Source: Amphirosellinia nigrospora
Taxonomy: Eukaryota > Ascomycota > Sordariomycetes > Xylariales > Xylariaceae
Direction of reading: 5' to 3'
NCBI GenBank assembly: GCA_004123355.1
Contig: SCHM01000003.1
Span: 6,033,058 to 6,097,057 of the forward strand
DNA length: 64,000 bases
Shown piece after piece: positions 41,504 through 64,000 of this stretch. The position numbers and the translations under genes are program-made. The stretch's first letter is position 1. Each line of letters starts with the position of its first letter. Below the pieces are notes generated by a model, which saw only the letters and a program-made list of their open reading frames with translations, had not been told where the DNA came from and did not search any database.

Positions 41504-41787
41504 TGTTGGGTGGCTAAAAGGTACGATATTATATAATAATAGGTAAAATAAATATTATATATATTGATTTATTTTTTCTAACTATTTATATAAAAGCTAG
41601 GCTTTTGTGCGGAGAATTTTTTTATACGAAAAAAATTTTGCTGCAATATATTATACAACCGAATTAAGCGGATATACTAGCTTAATTTTATTATATAAAT
41701 AGCTAATATATAATTAATAATTAGTTATTATATATAATTAATATTAATATATTAATTTTATATATAAATAATATTATAATTATAATA
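41504..41787. repeat. Left LTR of element A
   Basis: About 284 bases, sharing AAAAGCTAGGCTTT, TTTTGCTGCAATATA and a long TTAATATTAATATATTAA part with the three other LTR copies of this family (48458, 49747 and 56755). Confidence 0.8.
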
Positions 41788-42150
41788 TAGTTTTTTTTTT
41801 TTAGTTATAGCTTTTTATATAATTGTTTTTTTTAATATAAAAAATTTAAACGTAAAAAAAATATTAAATATATTATATAGCAAATATATAAAAAAAAAGC
41901 GTTTAATAATATATTAAATTATTTTTAAAGTGCTTAATATTTATATAATTATATATAAGAAAAAAGTTAGTAAGTATAAATAAAAAAGCTAACTTTTATA
42001 TAATTATTATATATAATTTTATTTAATTTGTTTAAATATTTTAAAGGATTAATAATACGTTGCTTTTATATTTATATTATTATATAGTTAGGTTATTTTT
42101 ATACTATTTTTTTTTTTTTTTTTATTTTTTTTTTTTTACGCGCGTATACT

Positions 42151-48457: not shown

Positions 48458-48737
48458 TATTAAATAGCTAAAAAGTATAATATTATATATAATAATAAAT
48501 AAAATAATTTATATATATTAATTTATTTTTTTAACTATTTATATAAAAGCTAGGCTTTCGTACAAAGAATTTTTTATATAAAAAAAATTTTGCTACAGTA
48601 TATTATATAACTAAATCGGGCGGACATATTAGCCTAATTTTATTATATAAACAGCTAATATTATATTAATAATTAGCTATTATACGTAGTTAATATTAAT
48701 ATATTAACTCCGTACGTAGATAATACTACAATTATAA
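48458..48737. repeat. Right LTR of element A
   Basis: About 280 bases, a direct copy of 41504-41787. Landmarks AAAAGCTAGGCTTTCG and AACTAAATCGGGCGGACAT are present. Confidence 0.8.
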
Positions 48738-49151
48738 AAAATAGTTATAAATTTTGCTACTATTATATAAAAAAAATATTTTAATAATAAATATAATATT
48801 AAAATTTAAACTAAATAATAAGTTTTTTTTATTTATATAATAGTTATATTTATTTAGCGAACTTTTTAAAAAATATTTATAATAACGTATTAAATTTTAA
48901 ATTATTAAATATAAAATCAGTAATTTAGCTTACGAACTAAATTTTTTTTAAATATTATTATATATATTTTATTATTTTAGTTATATAGTTATAATTATAT
49001 AAAAATAATAAAAACTTTTTTAAGCGAATAATATTTCTGCTAGAACTTATTAAAGCTAACTAGCATTTTAATAATAAAACGAAAATAATATTTATAAAAT
49101 CGAAGTTATATTTAAATATTATTTTAATTAAAAAAAAAAATTTTAATTATT

Positions 49152-49705
49152 TGTCACGATTGGCGTTCCTGGCCACTACGCAGTTGCGCTAACCCCTGTA
49201 AAAGGGATGTGGAATACCAAGGTGGAGACTTGGCATTCTATTAGTGGCTATATAGGGTTCCTGGCCACTACGCAGTTGCGCTAACCCCTGTAAAAGGGAT
49301 GTGGAATACCAAGGTGGAGACTTGGCATTCTATTAGTGGCTATATAGTCCTACGGTGACCAGCCGTAACTACCCCCCGAAACAACACAGGGTTCGCCCCT
49401 TGAACCCTAGCCCCTCCCCCCCGGCCTCCACCCGCGGGAAGGTGTCAGGTTAGGGCACTAGGTTCGACGCTTCAAGGGAGCCTGTGCGAGGGAGTGCAGC
49501 GTCACTATATACGCACCCGGAAAAGGCTGGGCCTTTTACCACCTACAGGGCTCGAACCTGCAGGCTGTGGGTACCTTGTATTGTCACGATTGGCGTTCCG
49601 GCCACTACGCAGTGCGCTAACCCCCTGTAAAAGGGATGTGGAATACCAAGGTGGAGACTTGGCATTCTATTAGTGGCTATATAGTCCTACGGTGACCAGC
49701 CGTAA
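49152..49705. mobile_element. Element G: 554-bp normal-GC island with terminal direct repeats (TRIM-like)
   Basis: The island starts TGTCACGATTGGCG at 49152. A repeat with that start and the end GGTGACCAGCCGTAA occurs at both ends, 49152-49368 on the left and 49582-49705 on the right, around a 213-bp middle. The left copy is longer because a 92-bp unit (from 49166 and again from 49258) is duplicated in tandem; the right copy has it once. The possible target duplication TTATT stands at 49147-49151 and 49707-49711. There is no coding frame. On the minus strand the middle has GGTTCGAGCCC, a B-box-like tRNA motif, and the 92-bp unit has TTAGCGCAACTGCG, A-box-like, so a SINE-type origin is the alternative. 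Normal composition beside RIP-mutated DNA means it arrived later or escaped RIP. Family is unknown. Confidence 0.7.
49166..49349 (+). repeat. Tandem duplication of a 92-bp structured unit
   Basis: Two head-to-tail copies begin at 49166 and 49258; a third single copy lies in the right repeat from about 49596. Each can pair GCCACTA near its start with TAGTGGC near its end. Inside are hairpins CGCAGTTGCG, CCCCTGTAAAAGGG and a 10-pair stem GAATACCAAG with CTTGGCATTC closing a 7-base loop. The complements are visible in the sequence; an RNA role is inference. Confidence 0.7.
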
Positions 49706-49746
49706 TTTATTTAATTAAATAAAAAAAATAAAATTATAAACATAAC

Positions 49747-50030
49747 TATTAAGTAGCTAAAAGGTATAATATTATACGTAATAATAGGTAAAATAAATAC
49801 TAGTATATTAGATTTATTTTTTAATTATTCGTACGAAAGCTAAGCTTTCGTATAGAAAATTCTTTTATACGAAAAAAATTCTGCTGCAATATATATATAA
49901 TTAAATTAAGCGGATATATTAGCTTAACTTTATTATATAAACAACTAATATTATAGTTAATAATTAGCTATTATACGTAATTAATATTAATATATTAATT
50001 TTATATATAAATAATATTATAATTATAATA
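49747..50030. repeat. Left LTR of element B
   Basis: About 284 bases, the same family as the LTRs of A, with landmarks GCTAAGCTTTCGTA and TTCTGCTGCAATATA. ATAAC precedes it. Confidence 0.8.
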
Positions 50031-50415
50031 TTAGCTTTTTTTTTTTTAGCTATAGCGTATTTTTATACGATTATTTTTTTTAATATAAAAAATTTAAACG
50101 TAAAAAAAATATTAAATATATATATAATAATACGTAAATAAAAAAAGCGCCCGATAATATATTAAATTATTATTTTTTTAAAATATTTAATATTTATATA
50201 ACTATATATAAAAAAAAAAGTTAATAAGTATAAATAAAAAGCTAATTTATATATAACTATTATATATAATTTTTTTGTTTAATTTATTTAATATTTTAAA
50301 AAATTAAATAATATTTACTTTTATATTTGCTGCTATTATACGTAAGTTAGGTTATTTTTATATTGTTTTTTTGGTTTTTTTTTTTTTTTTTTTTTTTTTT
50401 ACGCGCGTATATTTA

Positions 50416-50418
<3 letters not shown>

Positions 50419-50453
<35 letters not shown>
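50419..50453. repeat. (TA)n microsatellite inside element B
   Basis: This TA run occupies the position equivalent to 42151-42185 of element A, after the shared ACGCGCGTATA motif and a long T-run. Confidence 0.75.
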
Positions 50454-50454
<1 letters not shown>

Positions 50455-53400
50455 TTTATATATATATTTAACTAATTTTATAAATTTATATAGTATTAAG
50501 TTTAATAATTATTATATAATAAGTATAATATTAATAATAATATTAATAATAATATTAATAATATTAATAATTAATAAATAATATAATAATTATATTATTA
50601 TTATTATTATATTATTATATATAAAGTTTTCTAAGTTTTTTAATATTATATTAATAAGCAATTAAGGCAAAACTACTATTAATATTAATAATAGCTATTA
50701 TAAAACTTATTAATTTTATTAGGGTTTTTTACCCGCGTTTTATACTTTTTATTTTTAATAGTATTATATAGTTTTAAAACTTATACGTTTAAAAAAAGTA
50801 GCGCTATTAAAGTTTATAGCTTTTTTATTAAAATTAAGCTTAAAACTTTTATATTAACGTTATATATAAATATACGTATATTTTTATTTATTTATTTTAT
50901 ACGAATAATTTTTAATATATATTTTAGCTAATTTATTTTATTATATATAAAACGAAAAAAATATAATCGTTTTAGTTTTTCGTATAATATTATTTTCTAA
51001 GTATTATTAACTATTATTTACTAATATATAAGCGAAGTTTATACGTTAAAAAATATTTCCGTATAATTTTATTTAAAATTATAATTAAATCGTTATTTAT
51101 ATTAAAATAGTTTATATAATATTATATTAATTATTAAAATATTTTATTTAATTAATATTATATAATATTAAGTTTTTAAAGTAATATTTATAGCGCTTAT
51201 ATATAGCAATTGTATAATATTTATTATTTTTATTATATATAGTTTAAATTTAAAAGAAAAAAAAAATAAAAGATTAATTATACGCGTTATTTTTTAAAAT
51301 ATAAATTTTAGTTATTATTTTTGCTATAATTTTTTAACTTTTTTATTATTTATATATAATATTTATTTTTTTAAATATTTATATATAATATATCGTTTTT
51401 ATATATGTTTAGCTGTTATTTATTATATAAATATTTTTATAGTTTTTTAATAAATATTTTAATTATATAAGCAGTTATTTATAAAAACTAAAGTTTTTAA
51501 TATTTAATTTAGTATACGCTTAATAAATATATTAGCTAGGTTATTTTTATTATTAATTTATTATATTTTAAAAATTTTTTTTTTTTATATAACTTTTAAA
51601 AAAATATAATATTTATTATTAATTTTTTTTTTTAAGTTATTTTTAGCTTAATTAAATAATTATATAATAATTTAAAATTTAAGTATAAAATAATAAATAT
51701 TAAAAATAAATTAAATATTTTTATAATTTTTTAAAATATTGTACGAAAAATAATAATATTATTAAAACCGCTAATTATATTATATAATTGCTAGCTAGAA
51801 TTTTATATAATTTTTTTATATTTGTTTAAATTTTAATATATAATATTATTTTCGATTTTAAAGTTTAAATTATATTATTTTTTATATAACTTTAACTATA
51901 AATATAATAATAAATTAAACTATAAATTATATTTATATTATTTATAAATAATTTATTTATAAAAATAAAAACTTTATATAATAAAAATCGAAAAAAATAA
52001 ACGTAAATTTTTTAACGGGTTATTTTTTTACTATTTAATTTATTTATTTAATATTTTAATATTATATAATTATAGCTTAATAATTTAAGCTATAATAATA
52101 AAATCGTATATAGTTTTAAATTAATATATATTATTAATATATATTTTTTAGTTTATTAAAAAATATAAGCTTAAGCGAATTTTTTTATATAAAATTAATT
52201 TTAGCTAATTTTTAGTTTAATTTTTTAAATTATTATAATATTTTATTTATATAAAAAAATTTTTTATTATTAAATTTAAAAAATATTTAAAAAATAAAGT
52301 TTTTTTAAATTTTATATAAATTTTATTTTTTAAGTTTTTTTTTTTCGCGCAATAAAAAGTTTAATATAATAAAACTTAATATATTATTTGTTTATATTTT
52401 AATTATTTTAAAAATATTTAAATTATTATATATAACTAATAAATATAAATTATATATAAATTTATATTTTAAGTTTTTTTTAATAATATTAATAATATAT
52501 TTTAAACTAATATAGTTTAAATTTAGTTAAGCTATAAAAATTATATAATATATAAAATAATTTTTAAAAAATATTTTTTTTTAGCTTTAAAAATAAATAA
52601 ATATAAATATTATATAATATTTATTTTTTAATTAAATATAAACTTAAATAATATTTTTAAGCTTATATAAAGTTTTAAAATTTTATATAAAAAAAACTAA
52701 ATATTAAAATTAACTATTAGTTTATTTATTAAATTATTAACGATTAAATTAAAATAGTATTTTTTCGATATTATTATTTTTATATAATAAGTTTAAATTT
52801 TTATATAGTTTTATAGTTTTTTTTTAATTTTTTATACGAAATAAAACTTAAAAATATATTTTTTTTTATAAATATTTAAATTATATATAATAAATTTAAA
52901 AACGTTTTATATAATAAATTTATTAATTTTTATTATATTTAACTTTTTAAATAATTTATTAAAAGTTATAATAATTTTATTTATATATAGTTTAATTATT
53001 AATTTAAAAACTTATTTTTTTTTTTTATTAAAAAATTTATAATATTTAAATATTATATAATAAATATATTTAAACGTTATATAATAATAAAGCTAAGTTT
53101 TTTTTTTTTAGCTAGTTATATTTTTTTTAATAATTATTAGTTATATAAATTATATATCGTTTTAGTTTAAATTATTTATTTAAATATTTTTATATATATA
53201 ATATATAGTTTAATTTATATATATTAAAAATATATTAGTTTATTAATTAAAATTATAATTATATTTAATTTTCGATTATTTTTAATTTTATACGGTTTTT
53301 TTTATTTTTTTTTTTTTTTTTATATTAAAACTTTATTTTAAAAAAAAATATAAATATATTATATAAAAATAGTTTATTTTATTTATTAATCGTATAATTA

Positions 53401-56400
53401 ATTTTAATTTTTATATTTTTATATAATATTTTTATTGCTTTTTAAATAATTATGTTTTTTATATAATAAAAAAAAATAAAAAAATTTTTTATTAATATAA
53501 AAATAAGTTTTAAAAATAAAAAAGTTAATATAAAACTATTAAATTTAATAGTTATTTAATATTTTTATTATTATTTATAAAATTAATTTATTATTTATAT
53601 ATATATTAATTTTTTTTTAAAAAATATTATATATATGTTTAAATAGCTTATATATTTATTTTATTTTATTTATTATTTAGTATACTTTAATAAATATTTT
53701 ATAATATTATATGTTAATTATTTTATATATATTTTTTAAATTTATTTAATAAAAATTTATTTTAAAATTATATATAATATTATTAAAAATTTTTAATAAA
53801 TATTAATTTAATATTTATATAATATTTTTTATACGTTTTATATAAATATTAATTTTAAAAAAATTATTATTTAAAATAATATAATATTAATAATATATAA
53901 TACGTTTTAATTATTTATTTATATAATATTTATAATTATTTTATAATTAAATTTATAGTTATTTTTAATTATAAATTTAAATCGTTATAAAGTTTTATTA
54001 TATATTTAATAATAATAATAAAATTTCTAGATTTTTTTTAAAATAAATTATTAATTTTATATTTTATATAAATAATATTTTATATAATTTTTTTATAAAA
54101 ATATTTAAATCGTTTATATAAATAGTATAGTTTAATTTTTATAAAATAACTAGTTATTTTATACAAGCTAATATTAAAAAATAAATAGCTTTATTTATAT
54201 ATAATAAAAATATTATTTTTATTTTTTTATATAATAATATTTTTTATATTATTAAATATATTTTTAAATAATTTATATTTTTTAAAAAAAATAAAAATAA
54301 ATAAAAATATTTAAAATATAAAATATTATATAGCTAATTTAATTATTAATTTTATTATTTTATTATTATATATTAAAGCTTATTTTAGTTATTTTAAAAG
54401 TTTAAATAATTTTAGCTTTTAAGTTTTTTTATACGTAAGTTTTTATTTATAGTTTTTTATAATAAAAATTTTAAAACTTTATATTTTAAATAATATTTTA
54501 ATATTTCTTTATAATATTAATTATTAAATATAAATAAATTAAATAATTAATTTATAATTATCGATTAAATATTTTTTTTTATATATATATAAATATATTA
54601 TTTATAATATATTATATATATTTTATTTTATATATTAATTTTTTTTTTTTTTTTATATATATTTAAATAGTTATATAATTAAAAATTTTTCGGAAGTTAG
54701 TTTATTTTTAAATATTATTTCGTACGTATTAAAAATAATTTTTTATATAAAACTTTTTTTAAAAAATATAATTAATTAATTAGTATTTTTTTTTTAATAA
54801 ATAAAATATTTTTTATTTATATATAATTTTTTAAAAAATAATTATTTATATAATTTTAATTAATATATATTTTAAAAATTTTTAAAATATTATATAATAT
54901 TTTTATATTATATAAAATAATAGTTAATTTAATTATATTATCGATTTATATAAAAAATTTTATTTTTTATATAAATATTAAATTATTAGGTTTTTTTTAA
55001 CTTAAAAATATAAATAAAAGTTTAAAAAAAATTTTTATATATATAAGTTTTTAAAAAATAAATATTATTTCGAATTTTAAAATATTTTTATATATATATA
55101 TAATTATATTTAAATAAATTTTTTTAAATATTTTATTTTAAATATTTTTTAAGCTTTAAATAATTTATTAATTATAATTTTAATATTTTATATAAAAAAA
55201 TTTTTTTTTATTATATATTTATATAAAAATAATATTAGTTTAATTAGTTTAATATTAATTATAGTTTATAATTATATTAAATATATATTTATATATATTA
55301 TTATTTTTTTTATATATAATTAAAATATAATATATATAATTTTTTATATAATTAATTAATATTATAAAAAATATAATATAAAATTAATTTTTTATAATTT
55401 TAAGTTTATAATAATAATTAATAAACTATTATATTTTATTATAAAATAAATTATATAGTTTTTTAAAATAATTTTTTTTTTTTTGTTAAGTTTTTAAAAA
55501 AATTTAATATTTTATAAATAAAATAGTTTTATTTTAAATATTATATATAAAAAAGATTTAAATTTTAAATAAAAATATTTTTATATTTAATATTATATAA
55601 TAAATAAATTATTTTAAAGTTTAAAAAAATTTTAAAAAACTAAATATTTTATTATATATTAAAAATATAATATATTTTTGCTTATATAAAATAAATTATT
55701 AATTAAAATAAATAATAAATAACGTTTAATAATTAAAAAAATTTTTAAAATTTATTTTTAATATTTTATTTTTAATATTTTTATTATTTAAAGTTAAAAA
55801 GCTAGCTTTTATTATATATAAGTTATTTTACGGCTATTTTTTTTATTTTTTTTTGTTTTTTTTTTATTTGTTTTTTTATTTAAAAAAAAAAAATATAAAG
55901 TTATTTTATTATATAAAAAATTTTATTAATTTTAAAATTATTAATTTAATATAAAAAACGTAAATATTATTTAAAACAATTATATAAAATTTAAAATTAT
56001 ATATTAAAGTATATTTATTTTTTATAAATTATATATATAGTTTTTTTTTAACTATTTATAAGTTTTTAATTTAAAACGTTTTTTATATAAAAACGTTATA
56101 AATTTTTTTAATAATTTAAATATTAATTTTATTAAATATTTTAAGTTTTATTATTTTAAAGTTTTTATTAATATTTTTTAAAATTTTTTAAATTATATAA
56201 AATATAATTATATTTTATATATATATTATTTATATATTAATTTATTTTATAATAATTATTTTAAAGTTTTATAAAATATTTTTATATATATAAAAATTAA
56301 TAGTTTTTCGTATAAAATTTAAAAATATACTAGTTTTTTAAGCGATTTTTTCGGCTATATTATATATAAAATATTAGCTAAAAAAATAAAAATTATTTTA

Positions 56401-56754
56401 GCTATTTTTTCGAAAATATAATTTTTATATATTTAATTATATTAGCTATTATATAATTAATTATTTTTTTTATTATATTTAAAAATATTATAAATAAAAA
56501 ATTATTAAATTATATTACGAACTTTTATATAGTTTATATAATAATAATTAAAAAATATATAATTATACGCTATTAATTAAACTTTTATATAAAAATATAA
56601 TATTAAAATATATTAAAATAATTAATTTTTTTTTTTATTAATATAATATTAAAAAAACTAAAATATAATATAAAAAATATAATTTATATAATTAAATTTA
56701 AATTTTATTTTTATTTTTACTAATTTATATTTTTTAACTAAAAATATTAATTAA

Positions 56755-57038
56755 TATTAAATAGCTAAAAATATAATTTATATATATAATATAATAAATA
56801 ATATTAATATATATAGATTTATTTTTTTTAACTATTTATATAAAAACTAAGCTTTTATACGGAAAATTTTTTTATACGAAAAAAATTTTGCTATAATATA
56901 CCGTATAACTAAATCGGGCGGATATATTAGCCTAACTTTATTATATAAACAGCTAATACTATAATTAATAATTAATTATTATACGCAGTTAATACTAATA
57001 TATTAACTTTATATATAAATAATACTATAATTATAATA
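56755..57038. repeat. Right LTR of element B
   Basis: About 284 bases, direct partner of 49747-50030, followed by ATAAC at 57039-57043. It retains AACTAAATCGGGCGGATAT. Confidence 0.8.
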
Positions 57039-57428
57039 ATAACTATTAGTATTTAGTATATTATTTTTAATATTCATAAAAACTTATCGATAAATATTAA
57101 GCTAAGTATAGCTTCCGTTTTATATTGTTAAAAAAGAAAAAATTTTCTGTAAAACTATTTATCTTTAATCCTACGGTTAAAATAATAAAAATAAAAATTA
57201 AGCGCCCTTATAATAAGCTACGTAAATTAGTTATTAATACTTTAATTCTAGCAATAATTTTTATTAATATTTTTATTACGAACATACTAGCATTTATAAA
57301 TAAAATAATAAAAAAAAATAAAACAAACAATAGTATTATTTAATATTATATAAAAATAGATTTATAAATATAGCTTAAATAAATCGGTTTGCTAAAGTTA
57401 ATAAATGTTTTTTTATGCCCCGGTATTT

Positions 57429-57620
57429 TAATAAAACCTTTAAAAGGTTTATATTATTAATAGCTTTTTTACGTAAAACGTAAAAAAAAGCTACTTAGCA
57501 ATACTTATATTTAAATAAACAGCTAGTACATTATTAATTAAAAATCTATTATTAGATCTACTACGTAAATTTAATAATAGATTTTTTTTTTTAATTAAGC
57601 TTTATTTTATAACTTATAAT
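57429..57620. repeat. Right LTR of element E
   Basis: 192 bases, the direct-repeat partner of 34710-34900, with the same end ACTTATAATA. Differences are nearly all C-to-T or G-to-A. Confidence 0.75.
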
Positions 57621-58977
57621 ATTTTTCTCATTTACGTTATAAATATATTATTTCGTTTAAGTAGCTATATAAGATTTTTAGCTATATAAAATTTAAAATA
57701 ATAAAATAATAATTTTATAATAAAAATAAAATAGCGTAATATAAATACGTTCGTTTTATTTTTTATATAAAAAACTAAAACATAATTTGCTCGATTAGCT
57801 ATATATATATATATAAACGTGCTAGTTTTATATATATATTAAATTAAATATTTTATAATATTTATAAGTATTATTATAGTTTATTATAATAAATATACTA
57901 TTATTATTTTCTAATTTATAGATCGAATAAATAAGTATAAAGAATTGTTTTTATTTTTATTAGCGAGGTTTATTATTTTTTTTTTTAAGCAAAATTAGCG
58001 TATTTTTTTTTATATTTTTTTTTTAGTTATATTTATAGTTTATAACTAAACTTTTGTTTATAACCTTTTTTTTTTAAGCTAGCGGTTTAGCGCTTTTATA
58101 TTTTTTTGTTTTTATGCTTATTAAATCGGTTATTTTGTTTAAAACTACGCTTAAGTTTATTATATTTTTAATATAGTTTATTTTTAAAATATTTTTATAA
58201 ATAATTACTAAAAAGATTAGTTTTACTTTTATAATTTAAAATATATAGTTTATTAATTTTATAGTAAACTTAAATATTAGTAAAAAATTTAATGCTTAAG
58301 TTTATATAAATTTAAATAAAAACTATAATATTATATTAATTATAGTTATTTTTATTTAGCGTTTTTATTGCTCGAATATATTATAATTTTTGCTAAATAA
58401 AAATAATTATAATTATTTTATTACGAACAAAATATTTTAGCTTAAAATATAATTAGTTAAATAATTTTATAGCTTAAAAAGCTTATATAGCGAACTTATT
58501 AATAAAGTTATTAATAATTATAGTTAATTTTTTTTATATATATTAGTTTATTTTAAAACTATTAGCTTATTATTTTATTATAATAGCTAGTTTTAATAAA
58601 ACGTTTAAAATATAAATAATAATTATTTATTATTAGCTTTTATTAATTTTTTATTTTTTAAAAACAAATTAATATATTTAATAAAATAAAATATATTTAT
58701 AAAAATTAGCTTATTATTATAATTATATATTTTTATATTAAGATTATTTTATTTTAGGTCGAACTAATTAACGTTTGTTTTTTTTAGCTTTACTAGTTTA
58801 TTATACTATAAAATATTAATAGATTTTTTTTTGAATATTAACTTTATTATATTTTTATTTAATTTTATAAAGGTTTTATATTAAAATCTTGTAGGTTATA
58901 CGGCGGGCGTAATTTAAATAGTTTATACGGTTAGTATAAAGTTTATTTAATATTGCTAGGTTATTTTAGCTTATTAA

Positions 58978-58980
<3 letters not shown>

Positions 58981-59011
<31 letters not shown>
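58981..59011. repeat. (ATT)n microsatellite inside element F
   Basis: About ten uninterrupted ATT units in the right internal part of element F. A simple repeat without evident role. Confidence 0.8.
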
Positions 59012-59013
<2 letters not shown>

Positions 59014-61477
59014 AATTTTTATAAAACGTTTTAATAAGTTTTAAATATAATTAAATATTAAATATTAAAAGCTATTTATTTTAAGCTTTATTAAACTATT
59101 AATATAACGTAAAAAATCTATTTAGTTTTTTTATATTAAACTATTTAAAAAGCTAAAATTAAAGATTTTTTACTAACTATTAAACTTATAAATTAAACTA
59201 TATACTAAAGTTTTATATTAGCTATTTTTCGGGTAAAGATTTTAAAATATTAAGGGGTATTAAAAATATTAAATATATATTTTTTATTAGTTATATAAAT
59301 TATGTTTAAATATAAAAATCTTTTAAATATTTATATAAAAGTTAATATTTTATATTTTTAGTTAATTTAGTATATATTACTATTTTTAGTACTATATAAA
59401 TTATTAGCGCTATATATATATAAAATTATCGGGTTATTATAAATATATATTATTTAGAACGTTTAAAGTTTAATTAATATATATTTAATAAAAATACTAG
59501 TTAATATATAAATAAAATAATAAAATAATAATTTAGATATAAAATTAATATATTAAAAATCGTTAGTTTAAAATTACGATTGTTTTTATTATAATAGTAT
59601 TACCGAATTATTTTAATGCTACGATTTTTTATTAGCTATAATATATTTAATACTAATTATTAATATTATAACTTTAAAAATTTATAGGTTATAGTTATAT
59701 TATTGTAGTAGCTAGTATACTTATAAACGGTACGTTATTATTTTATCGAATTTTTTATATAATTATTATAACGTTTATAAATAATAGTTATTTTATTATT
59801 TATAAATATATTTATATATATATAACTAAAGTTTGTTAGCTTAAAGTTTAATTTTTAGTTTTTAATTTTATTATTTTTTTTATTAATTGTTTTTATTTAT
59901 TAATTAACTTTATTAAAATAGCTTTAATATTTTTAACTTTTTAATATATATTAATAATATATTTAAAAAATTTAGCTATATTTTTTTATAAAGCTAATTA
60001 AATAATAAAACTATTAAAATAGTTGTTTTATTTTTTAAACTTTTTTAAATATAGTTTTAAATTTTTTATTATTATTAAACTTTTAAAAATAGTTTTTAAA
60101 TTATTAAAATTTAATTTTAATTAATTAAACTACGCAAGCTTTTAATTTATTGTTTTAAAATTTTAAATATATTAAAGCTAAAAAAAAAAAGCTTAAAAAT
60201 TAATATAAATAATTATATTTTGCTTTTTTTAATATATAATAATTAAATAGTTTATATTAAAAATATAAATAATAATTTTATTATTGTAAAAAGTTTTAAT
60301 AATAAGCTAAAATTTAGCGGCAATATAAGTCCGGACGTTATAGCTTAACGTAGATAGCTAGAAATAATATTATTTTTTTTTTTTTTAACTAAAGCTATTA
60401 TAAATCGATTAATAAATAGCTATAATAAATATTAAAATTAAATAGTATTAATATTAAATTAGTTTTAATTAGCTTAAATATTAAATTTTTTTATTATAGC
60501 TATATTATTATTTAACTATAAAACTTTTTAGCTTTTAAATTAAACTATTAAATTTTTTAAGTTTTATTTTAATAATAATATTTATTTTAAATTTTAAATA
60601 AGCTTTAAATATAACGTATAAAATAGCTAACTAAAAAGAATTTATAAAAAATAATATAATTAATTAATATATTATAACTATTTAAAATAAACGTAGTTTT
60701 TAAATAAGTAATTAAATATTTTTTATTATTAATTATTTTATAAATATATAAATTAATTAAATATTATAATTTTATTTTCGTACTAAAAATAAATAAATTA
60801 TAAAATAACTTAAAATATAATATAAAATAAATAGTTTATTAATTATTAAAATTGCTAAAATAATAAATAACTTTTAATAAAAAAAAAATTATTAACTATT
60901 TTATAAAAAGTTTTAAAATAATTTATTAAACAAATAAAATATAATAATATTAAAGTTATAAAAATAATAATAATTATTATAAACGTTAGTTTTAGCCGGA
61001 TATAATTAATATAAAAATAATAAAGCTATTTTAAAAATAATATTAAATATAAATTTAACTATAATATAAATCGTAACGTTAATATTAAACTAAAAACTAA
61101 TTAATTCGATATAAATTATTAATAATTAATATTTTTTTTTTTTTTAAAATATAAAATATTAAAATAATAACGTATTTTTTTAAAATAAATAAATATTAAA
61201 ATATTTCGAACTTTTATTACTTTATTAAAATACTAAATTAATATAAATAATATTAAAATAAACTTTTTTAAGCTTTTTTGTTTTATTAAAAATATAAAAT
61301 TAATAAAAATAAAATTAATATAAAGTTTAAATATTACTATAATACTATAAAAATATTAAAAATAATACGTAAAATCGCCGGAGCAGTTAAAAAATAACTA
61401 TATAAATAAACTACCGGCCGAAAAAAACAAAACTAAAATAACATAAAAACAAAAATTATAAAACTTACCGTACTATT

Positions 61478-61686
61478 TAATAAGTTTTACTAAAAATAAT
61501 ATAATATTAAGTTTATATAAATAAAAAAAAAAAAAAATACTAAATAAAGCTTTTGCTAAAATAAGAAATTTATTAGTTCTTAGCTTTTTTATCTAATCTA
61601 TAGGACTAGACTCTATTTATTAGTGGAGCAAGCTCTACCTTGCAGTGGGACCCCTGCGGGGTTACCCCCCTTGTTAAAGTGTAGCA
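61478..61686. repeat. Right LTR of element F
   Basis: 209 bases, partner of 29848-30056, and followed by ATTTA at 61687-61691. It keeps more G and C than the left copy, including a G/C hairpin GGGACCCCTGCGGGG at about 61,648-61,662. The difference between the two copies is mostly of the RIP type. Confidence 0.85.
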
Positions 61687-61691
61687 ATTTA

Positions 61692-63535
61692 TCTCGGCTT
61701 AAAGATTATAAATACTGCTATTATTACTAAGTTAAACTATTAATAGTTTTTTTAAAATATAATATAAAGTTATTTTTATTAAAAAATTATTTATAGCGAA
61801 GTATAACTAGCAATAAGTTTAGCTAATATATATTTTCCGAAATAAATTATATAAGCACTTTATATAATAGTTTTATAAAAATATAAGCATATTAATTCCT
61901 TCGGATAATATTATTATAAGCATACGCGGAATTTTTTAACTTACCGATATAAAACTTTTTACTTTTAAAAATAAATATAAACTACTAAGATTTATATATT
62001 AACTTATTAAATAATTTTTAAATAATATAATAATAGTAAAATATATTTATAGCTTTAAAAATAGCTTTAAATATATAAAATATTAATTTTTATATAATCT
62101 GCGAACTATTTTTTTTTAGTTCGAACACTATAAAATGCTTAAAAGTATTATATATAGTTATATTATTTTTATATTATTTTTTTAAAAGCAAAAATTAAAT
62201 TTAATATTTAAATATATAAAAAAATATCGAATAATTATTATATATATAACTTTAGCGATAGTATTACCGAAGCTATTATAAAATAAATAAATAATACGTA
62301 AATCGCGTAAAAAATATATTATTAATATTATTTATAATAGTTTTATTTTTTTAATAAGTACTTTTTTTTTATTTTTATTTAATTTGCTGCTTTAACTAGT
62401 AAAAAATTTTCCCTAATCGAAATAATTAACGATAATAATACTAAAAATAATAATAAACGTTAAAAATTAAATATAACGCTAAGTATAAAAAAATAAATTA
62501 TTAATACTAAAAATATTTTAAATTATATATAAATTAAACTATAAATTTAAGTTATATTTTACGTTTATTGTTTTAAAATACTTTTATATAACGTTATTTT
62601 ATTTATTAATTTTTTTTATATAAATATATAAAAAGCACTAAATTTATAATCATTAGTAAATTTATAGTTTTTTTATTTATTATAACGCTTTATATATATT
62701 TTTAATATACTAAAAAAGCCTTAATAAAATTAAAATCTAATAAGTATAAAAATAAATATTATAGTTTAATTTTATATATTTCTAATTTATATATAGCTAT
62801 AAAATAATAAAAACTAGCGTTATTTATTATAAAAACTAACTAAAGCTTAAAAAATAAGTTTATTAAAAATAATATTTTTTTTAAACTAGATTTTAAAACT
62901 TTTTATATTAATTAAACCTTAATATATAAATATTGTTTCGTTTAATATATTATTTATATAATTATAAACATATATTAAATCGGTTATTTTATTTTAATAA
63001 TTTCGAAATAAAAAAAATTAATTTTTAAATACTTAGCTATATTAATAGTTTATATTTTTTTTATTAATATTAAATTCGTTAATAAAAACGAATATATTAA
63101 TAATAAAATTTATAATTTAATAAATATAAAATAGCTATTTATAAGGTTTTATTATATTATTTTAATTTTTAGCTTTTTTATAACTAATCGACTTTTTTTA
63201 ATTAATCGGAAATTGTTTGTATAGCTATATATATATTATATTAAATTGCTAAAAATTATTATATTTTATTAAAATATAAATCTAAATAAATATTTAATTT
63301 TTCGATTAATATTTTTAAAGCTTATAAAAATAGCTTTAACGTATTATATTAACTTTATAACTTTAAAAACTATTCGGTATAACTTTAAAAGTTATATTGT
63401 TTTTAATAACGTTATATAGTTTTTATATTATAATTAAATTAATTATTAATTTTAATATTCGATTAGTTATATTATAATTATTATTAATATATTTATACGT
63501 TAAAATAATATTAAAAAAGCTTTATTGTTATTTCG
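61692..63535. repeat. RIP-mutated flank right of element F, unclassified
   Basis: A/T desert beyond the right ATTTA of F. It is slightly richer in G and C words than the elements inside F, but no reading frame, LTR or repeat partner could be recognised within the window. Confidence 0.5.
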
Positions 63536-64000
63536 AAAGCTTTAAAAGCTTTAAAAGTAATAAAAACGTATAATTAAAAGCTTTAAAAGCTATAAAAGTT
63601 TTAAAAGCATAAAAAACGCTAATTTAAAGTTATTAGCGCAAAAAACGCTAATTTAAAGCTATTAGCGCAAAAAACGCTGTTTTAGGGCTATTAATATATA
63701 AAACGTATATTTAAAAACTATAAAAGCTTTAAAAGCGTTAAAATCGCTAATTTAAAGCTATTAACGCAAAAAACGCGTATTTAAGGGCTATAAAAGCTAT
63801 AAAGGCGTAAAAAATCGTTAATTCGAAGCTATAAGTATAAAAAACGCTATTTTAAAGCTAATAACATAAAAATACCGTTTTTAAAAGCTATAAAAGCTAT
63901 AAAAGCTTTAAAAGCATAAAATTGCTAATTCGAAGCTATTAACGCAAAAAACGCGTATTTAAAGGCTATAAAAGCTTTAAAAGTATAAAAAACGCTGTTT
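63536..64000. repeat. Compound minisatellite, continues past window end
   Basis: A 29-base unit GCTAATTTAAAGCTATTAG plus CGCAAAAAAC recurs at least seven times with variants (GCTAATTCGAAG, GCGTATTTAAGG). It alternates with runs of 9-base GCTATAAAA or GCTTTAAAA units. Mixed units of about 29 and 41-48 bases alternate to the window edge. CG-containing words such as AACGC survive, unlike in the desert to the left. Confidence 0.75.

Follow-up and report, generated by a model that had tools for sequence, protein, structure and literature searches.

The stretch analysed here is a 64,000-nt window of the Amphirosellinia nigrospora genome (GCA_004123355.1, SCHM01000003.1:6,033,058-6,097,057, forward strand); all window coordinates count from its first letter as position 1. 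Within it, a small island of ordinary base composition is embedded in RIP-mutated DNA. The GC content of 49152-49706 reaches 0.546 but is only 0.095 in the left flank (28001-49151) and 0.101 in the right (49707-64000), and both flanks are of RIP type in their dinucleotide ratios (TpA/ApT of 1.21, (CpA+TpG)/(ApC+GpT) of 0.20). Across 28001-64000, taken in 200-bp windows, GC rose above 0.3 only at the island and in one weak window at 61551. The island contains three LTR-like copies, and its parts can be laid out as a miniature LTR element on the minus strand:

49147..49151: left copy of the target duplication (TSD), TTATT, read from the sequence
49152..49706, minus strand (probable orientation): whole miniature LTR element, 555 bp
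49152..49370, minus strand: downstream (3') LTR, lengthened by a tandem duplication with a 92-bp period
49165..49348: tandem duplication within the 3' LTR, 49165-49256 plus 49257-49348, identity 91/92
49371..49382, minus strand: candidate purine-rich tract adjoining the 3' LTR, GTTTCGGGGGGT, interrupted
49371..49581, minus strand: internal region, 211 bp
49573..49581, minus strand: primer-binding site adjoining the 5' LTR, ATACAAGGT
49582..49706, minus strand: upstream (5') LTR, 125 bp
49643..49652, minus strand: proposed RNA 5' end and self-primer, ACCTTGGTAT
49678..49683, minus strand: TATA-box-like sequence, by coordinates ~29 nt upstream of the proposed primer
49688..49704, minus strand: short hairpin at the outer LTR end, stem TACGG/CCGTA, read from the sequence
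49707..49711: right copy of the TSD, TTATT, read from the sequence

The minus-strand orientation was assigned from the primer site, the purine tract and the reverse transcriptase (RT) match in a related full-length copy. The middle one of the three LTR-like copies arose when part of one LTR was duplicated in tandem, giving an uninterrupted run of 91 identical bases offset by 92 (49165-49255 versus 49257-49347). At its length, the internal region would be expected to have no coding capacity. Compared with its relatives in the same genome, the island differs at several points: the purine tract of another copy, L002, reads AAGGAGGGGGGA directly before the 3' LTR and is, by eye, richer in purines; the island primer site ATACAAGGT is one base short relative to the ATACCAAGGT of other copies; and at the right end the island has CGTAAT where most copies have GTAACT, a loss of one base, so that the TSD itself was part of the basis for placing this end. 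The LTR of this family, which we call family A, reads AGTTAC...GTGACA on the minus strand. Its ends as set by the TSDs are therefore AG...CA, not the usual TG...CA; LTR elements with other ends exist, TG...CA being usual but not universal (PMC5659011). The arms of the outer hairpin covary between copies, with TACGG/CCGTA replaced at the same place by TACAGTG/CACTGTA in L002, L008, L024 and L027.

A first-pass annotation of this DNA had singled out the island as a GC-normal speck with terminal repeats in a RIP-mutated surrounding, and the base composition, the RIP indices of the flanks and the three LTR-like copies bear this out. Its suggestion that TTATT is a target duplication also holds, as the motif stands on both sides (49147-49151 and 49707-49711), but the element end has to be moved from 49705 to 49706. 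The surrounding block also holds a RIP-mutated repeat of ~200 bp, present four times on one strand (41593-41796, 48546-48737, 49831-50040 and 56843-57047) with successive copies about 7, 1.3 and again 7 kb apart. The arrangement looks like a pair of RIP-mutated LTR elements, each ~7 kb long, one to either side of the island.

Searching the whole genome (48.1 Mb in 11 contigs) yielded at least 16 matches to the whole element, at least 20 to the LTR and at least 10 to the internal region, which sorted into at least 15 loci. These take several forms: two LTRs around an internal region (the island, L002, L005 and L028), longer arrays in which three LTRs alternate with two internal regions (L003 and L026), single LTRs (L007, L022, L023 and L024), some of them with a TSD, and mixed forms with a related family, B (L006 and L008). 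Four family A copies are RIP-mutated (L025, L026, L028 and L034). Exact 5-bp TSDs flank 10 of the 12 insertions in the first set, where none of 132 cross-pairings of left and right flanks was exact; the non-exact cases match at four of five positions (L007) and three of five (L023). Adding L025 (TTAAT) and L026 (ACTAG) brought the count to 12 of 14 assessable insertions, with L034 left out since its left end is not clear; TTAAT is common to L025 and L003, giving 2 exact cross-pairs of 182 by hand count. For the composite forms at the island, L002, L003, L005 and L028, one TSD encloses the whole. The island thus belongs to a multicopy family with terminal repeats and 5-bp duplications. The very small terminal-repeat mobile element that the first-pass annotation had envisaged is borne out by these copies, and the further copies with 5-bp duplications that it had proposed to look for are present in the same genome.

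A longer relative of 367 bp (L027:1228-1594), with the family ends and the TSD TTAGT, has a tRNA-Met gene (1633-1704) 39 bp away. This was the single locus with a nearby ARAGORN tRNA among the 41 given, and we saw no general preference for integration near tRNA genes.

A functional clue lies at the junction of the 5' LTR and the internal region. The sequence ATACCAAGGT directly behind the 5' LTR is the exact complement of ACCTTGGTAT within the LTR. An exact 10-nt complement to the element's own LTR occurs at five of ten family A junctions (L002, L003 twice, L025 and L034); at L034 a base is changed in both arms and the match is still exact. L005 matches its own LTR at 9 of 10 nt, and as for the remaining junctions, the island site lacks one base, one L026 site is absent, and the other L026 site and that of L028 are RIP-mutated. 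Such a 10-mer is expected about 0.0002 times per LTR, and the observed complement length was reached in 9 of 20,000 dinucleotide-shuffled LTRs. As a control, the unrelated gypsy element D is self-complementary over no more than 7 nt in the region of its LTR end.

Position points the same way. The primer segment starts 29 nt below the TATA sequence in L002, both L003 copies, L005 and L025, with which the island agrees by coordinates, and its start lies 72 nt from the LTR 3' end in family A and 71 nt in family B. Judging from the TATA distance, we propose that the RNA begins at ACCTTGGTAT. In the predicted fold of a 167-nt L002 leader with this start, the first 11 nt pair with the primer site plus the last LTR base, with pairing probabilities of 0.87 to 1.0 across the first ten. 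Among predicted folds of seven leaders at three lengths each, the mean pairing probability of primer and primer-binding site was at least 0.8 in 13 of 21, comprising all folds of L002 and of both L003 leaders, two of three each for L005 and L025, and none for the RIP-mutated L028. In the longest fold the pairing fell to 0.0 for L005 and also for the island, whose shorter folds gave means of 0.52 and 0.79. Taken together, the complementarity, its placement and the predicted folds suggest that family A RNA most likely serves as the primer for its own reverse transcription, as Tf1 RNA does.

An element without coding capacity would need proteins from elsewhere, and family B offers a candidate source. 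Its LTRs, at 215-218 bp, have the same outer ends as those of family A; we found at least 41 LTR matches and scored 40 of 48 candidates. Among the matches listed are seven same-strand LTR pairs, five of them spanning 6.84-7.09 kb and two 14.0-14.4 kb. An RVT_1 domain (40.1 bits, three stops, in a RIP-mutated copy) lies inside one of these seven paired copies, oriented as expected from the primer site, while in the profile searches no integrase match fell in any of the seven. A locus that had looked like a longer family B copy, L062, was rejected as such, being a B LTR with a single element D LTR inside. Of the RT and integrase matches listed, many fall on one contig of 1.33 Mb (C9), which could be an accessory chromosome.

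Family B has the same kind of junction with other letters. At L096 an exact 10-mer, ATCGAGAGAT, is the complement of ATCTCTCGAT in the LTR, and ATCTCTCGAT is present in 13 of 13 family B LTR loci looked at. At all seven further junctions the best LTR match falls at this same site, with 6 to 8 of 10 positions matching strictly and 10 of 10 when RIP-type changes are allowed, the mismatches there being of RIP type only; because this tolerance also lets 28 of 297 other windows score 10 of 10, the RIP-tolerant match is weak on its own. The family B primer starts 41 nt below the TATA sequence. As the 10-mers of A and B are unrelated, complementarity has been kept while the letters differ.

The two families also meet in single insertions. 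L006 combines an A LTR and part of an A internal region with a B LTR and is flanked on either side by ATTAT; L008 combines an A LTR with a B LTR and is flanked on either side by TATTA. Each time the B LTR is the upstream partner in element orientation. A single TSD around A plus B suggests entry as one piece, which we infer to have arisen through a switch of template between A and B RNAs or through recombination that preceded insertion. Given the mixed insertions and the shared ends, the helper is likely to be family B or a close relative, and the common LTR ends, type of purine tract and self-priming layout point to the 6.8-7.1-kb family B as the likely helper lineage. Pattern searches for junctions of A or B LTRs with their primer sites returned no intact full-length helper, their exact matches lying only in A-type TRIMs; the family B pattern gave 93 matches versus 75 in the control, of which only C5:5084319 is a known junction. 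The helper may accordingly be lost, mutated or of another type.

Why the island kept its base composition is a separate matter, on which copies of different length are informative. The usual limits of RIP are given as ~400 bp and 80% identity (PMC4112212), and the first-pass annotation had reasoned that repeats this short might escape the process. Yet four of the nine family A insertions with an internal region (L025, L026, L028 and L034), similar in size to the island or somewhat larger, are strongly RIP-mutated, and L005 mildly so; in the strongly mutated copies, nearly every difference from L002 is a C>T or G>A change (all 46 in one L025 LTR, 40 of 41 in the L028 internal region). Element D, a gypsy-type element of ~5.8 kb with canonical TG...CA ends, has five unmutated copies with an open, stop-free RT, 99.3 to 99.9% alike across the 1.7-kb ends compared. 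With short copies mutated and the 5.8-kb element intact, short length is neither sufficient nor necessary for escape. DNA methylase domains occur at three places in the genome. Along the L026 array, the number of RIP-type transitions drops across successive LTRs, from 41 to 40 to 17.

Length may still matter. Strong RIP mutation is absent from all five family A loci that have a 136-bp LTR but lack an internal region. In family B, each of the 14 LTRs that belong to paired copies has 74-90% identity to the query, whereas 15 others among the matches listed are at least 91% identical. On the other side, 5 of 13 family B solo LTRs with exact TSDs (215-218 bp; L042, L047, L075, L093 and L097) are RIP-mutated, although their mutation may predate the solo state. 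Escape through shortness is thus not needed to account for the island, even if an influence of length survives from the original suggestion. The island itself looks young: its two LTRs differ by single-base indels only, some of which could be due to assembly errors, with zero substitutions across the shared stretch, and its TSD consists of AT-rich DNA while the element carries no RIP signature. An old island, left unmutated since its repeats fall below the length limit, is consistent with the usual limits, the five short loci without strong RIP mutation and the contrast within family B, but we consider it rather unlikely in view of the mutated copies of similar or somewhat larger size, the mutated solo LTRs, the unmutated D copies and the lack of substitutions between the island's LTRs. 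The island is probably a recent insertion into DNA that was already RIP-mutated, which is the simplest reading and a simpler explanation than length-based escape.

From the multicopy family, its repeats, its TSDs and its complementarity, all directly legible in the sequence, we infer the following course of events. A TATA-box promoter within the LTR would drive transcription of the element; the leading 10-11 nt of its RNA would anneal to the primer site that follows the 5' LTR and prime synthesis as in Tf1; the RT of another LTR element, likely of the family B lineage, would copy the RNA; and the DNA copy would be inserted with a 5-bp target duplication, in the case of the island into DNA already RIP-mutated and too recently for mutation of its own. 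We hold with good confidence that the island is a non-autonomous TRIM on the minus strand fitting this description, with a TATA-box promoter in its LTR, helper RT, insertion with a 5-bp TSD, a self-priming family, a B-type helper and recent entry. We also lean, more cautiously, towards a broader proposal: that family A represents a self-priming TRIM, a gene-less element of ~0.5 kb with a primer system of its own, in which primer and site stay complementary though their letters differ between A and B, and which rides on a self-priming helper lineage, the mixed A/B insertions with a single TSD being footprints of RNAs copied together.

Another identity considered for the family is a TRIM of the Helenus kind, driven by a tRNA-derived pol III promoter and primed by a host tRNA. 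As described in PMC10886601, Helenus TRIMs occur in rusts and some Agaricomycetes, and the likeness to family A is that of a fungal TRIM with 5-bp TSDs; they differ in having a tRNA-like sequence within the LTR and tRNA priming, and no complementarity between LTR and primer-binding site is reported for them there. Family A has that complementarity, and no tRNA-like sequence appears inside its LTR. The minus strand of the island does hold GGTTCGAGCCC, which resembles a tRNA B box, and TAGCGCAACTGC, which is near an A box (both consensus sequences being taken from general knowledge); TAGCGCAACTGC lies in the LTR, but the B-box-like motif lies outside it, in the internal region, so that single LTRs are without it. 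ARAGORN (bacterial code) detected no tRNA anywhere in the window, and comparison of 48900-49950 with Rfam was blank up to E = 1. We therefore regard a Helenus-type origin as very doubtful.

The 125-136-bp repeat might itself be a DNA transposon (MITE) with short inverted ends, the longer forms being clusters of it. The ends are indeed partly inverted (TGTCAC and AGTTAC, and in family B TGTCACG and AGTCACG), and single units with TSDs occur. Such a cluster is nevertheless hard to reconcile with the one TSD that encloses each composite form, with an LTR-type primer site and purine tract in the internal region, or with family B units that flank 6.8-7.1-kb spans, one of which holds an RT domain, and we find this reading hardly credible. 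Other candidates fell away more simply: a hammerhead-type retrozyme or known RNA is unsupported by the blank Rfam search, a tRNA or SINE is opposed by the absence of tRNAs from the window and by fixed 5-bp TSDs with terminal direct repeats, a Helitron is at odds with the 5-bp TSDs, and a host gene or rDNA piece is unsupported given a multicopy family with TSDs.

Should the self-priming TRIM reading hold, even the smallest LTR elements can bring a primer of their own and depend on a helper for proteins alone, and family A would be a compact natural test piece for self-priming, ~0.5 kb long, with matched and mismatched pairs of primer and site. A GC-normal speck within RIP-mutated DNA, moreover, need not signal RIP escape, as a young insertion looks alike. 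Three families that differ in length, with a mix of mutated and unmutated copies among them, offer a way to test the RIP length rule in this species.

The family is best placed by comparison with elements already described. The first-pass annotation knew of no named family with such a structure, a view that does not stand, since LTR, primer site, ~200 non-coding bp, purine-rich tract and LTR make up the anatomy of a TRIM. TRIMs are already known in plants, animals and fungi, and among ascomycetes nine are described in Cochliobolus heterostrophus (PMC4112212). Family A resembles them in its two short LTRs, short non-coding internal region, primer site, purine tract and 5-bp TSD, as well as in its single LTRs and multi-LTR arrays. 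A TSD of 4-6 bp is characteristic of TRIMs, and 12 of 14 insertions here have exactly 5 bp; a primer site lies beside the 5' LTR in the family, of the self-priming kind and with a one-base deletion in the island copy; and a polypurine tract lies beside the 3' LTR, read by eye in L002 and interrupted in the island. The usual TG...CA ends are absent, with AG...CA in their place. The main difference is the primer site, which when compared with the element's own LTR proves complementary to it in family A, whereas TRIMs use a tRNA. Among the open-licence PMC papers listed we found no self-priming TRIM; in a paper on bivalve TRIMs, self-priming appears as background only, with no clear mechanism proposed.

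Self-priming is, by contrast, known from full-length fungal LTR elements (PMC7175516, PMC4600332, PMC6934838), the named cases including Tf1, Tf2 and Tj1 as well as Maggy, Skippy, Boty and others (PMC6934838). In Tf1 the first 11 bases of the RNA are reported to pair with the primer site, and RNase H cuts between bases 11 and 12 (PMC7175516). Family A shares with Tf1 and the sushi elements an RNA 5' end complementary to the primer site, over 11 nt in Tf1 (PMC7175516, PMC4600332) and over 10-11 nt here if the RNA begins where we propose. It differs from them in scale, as those are full-length coding elements and the internal region of the island measures 211 bp.
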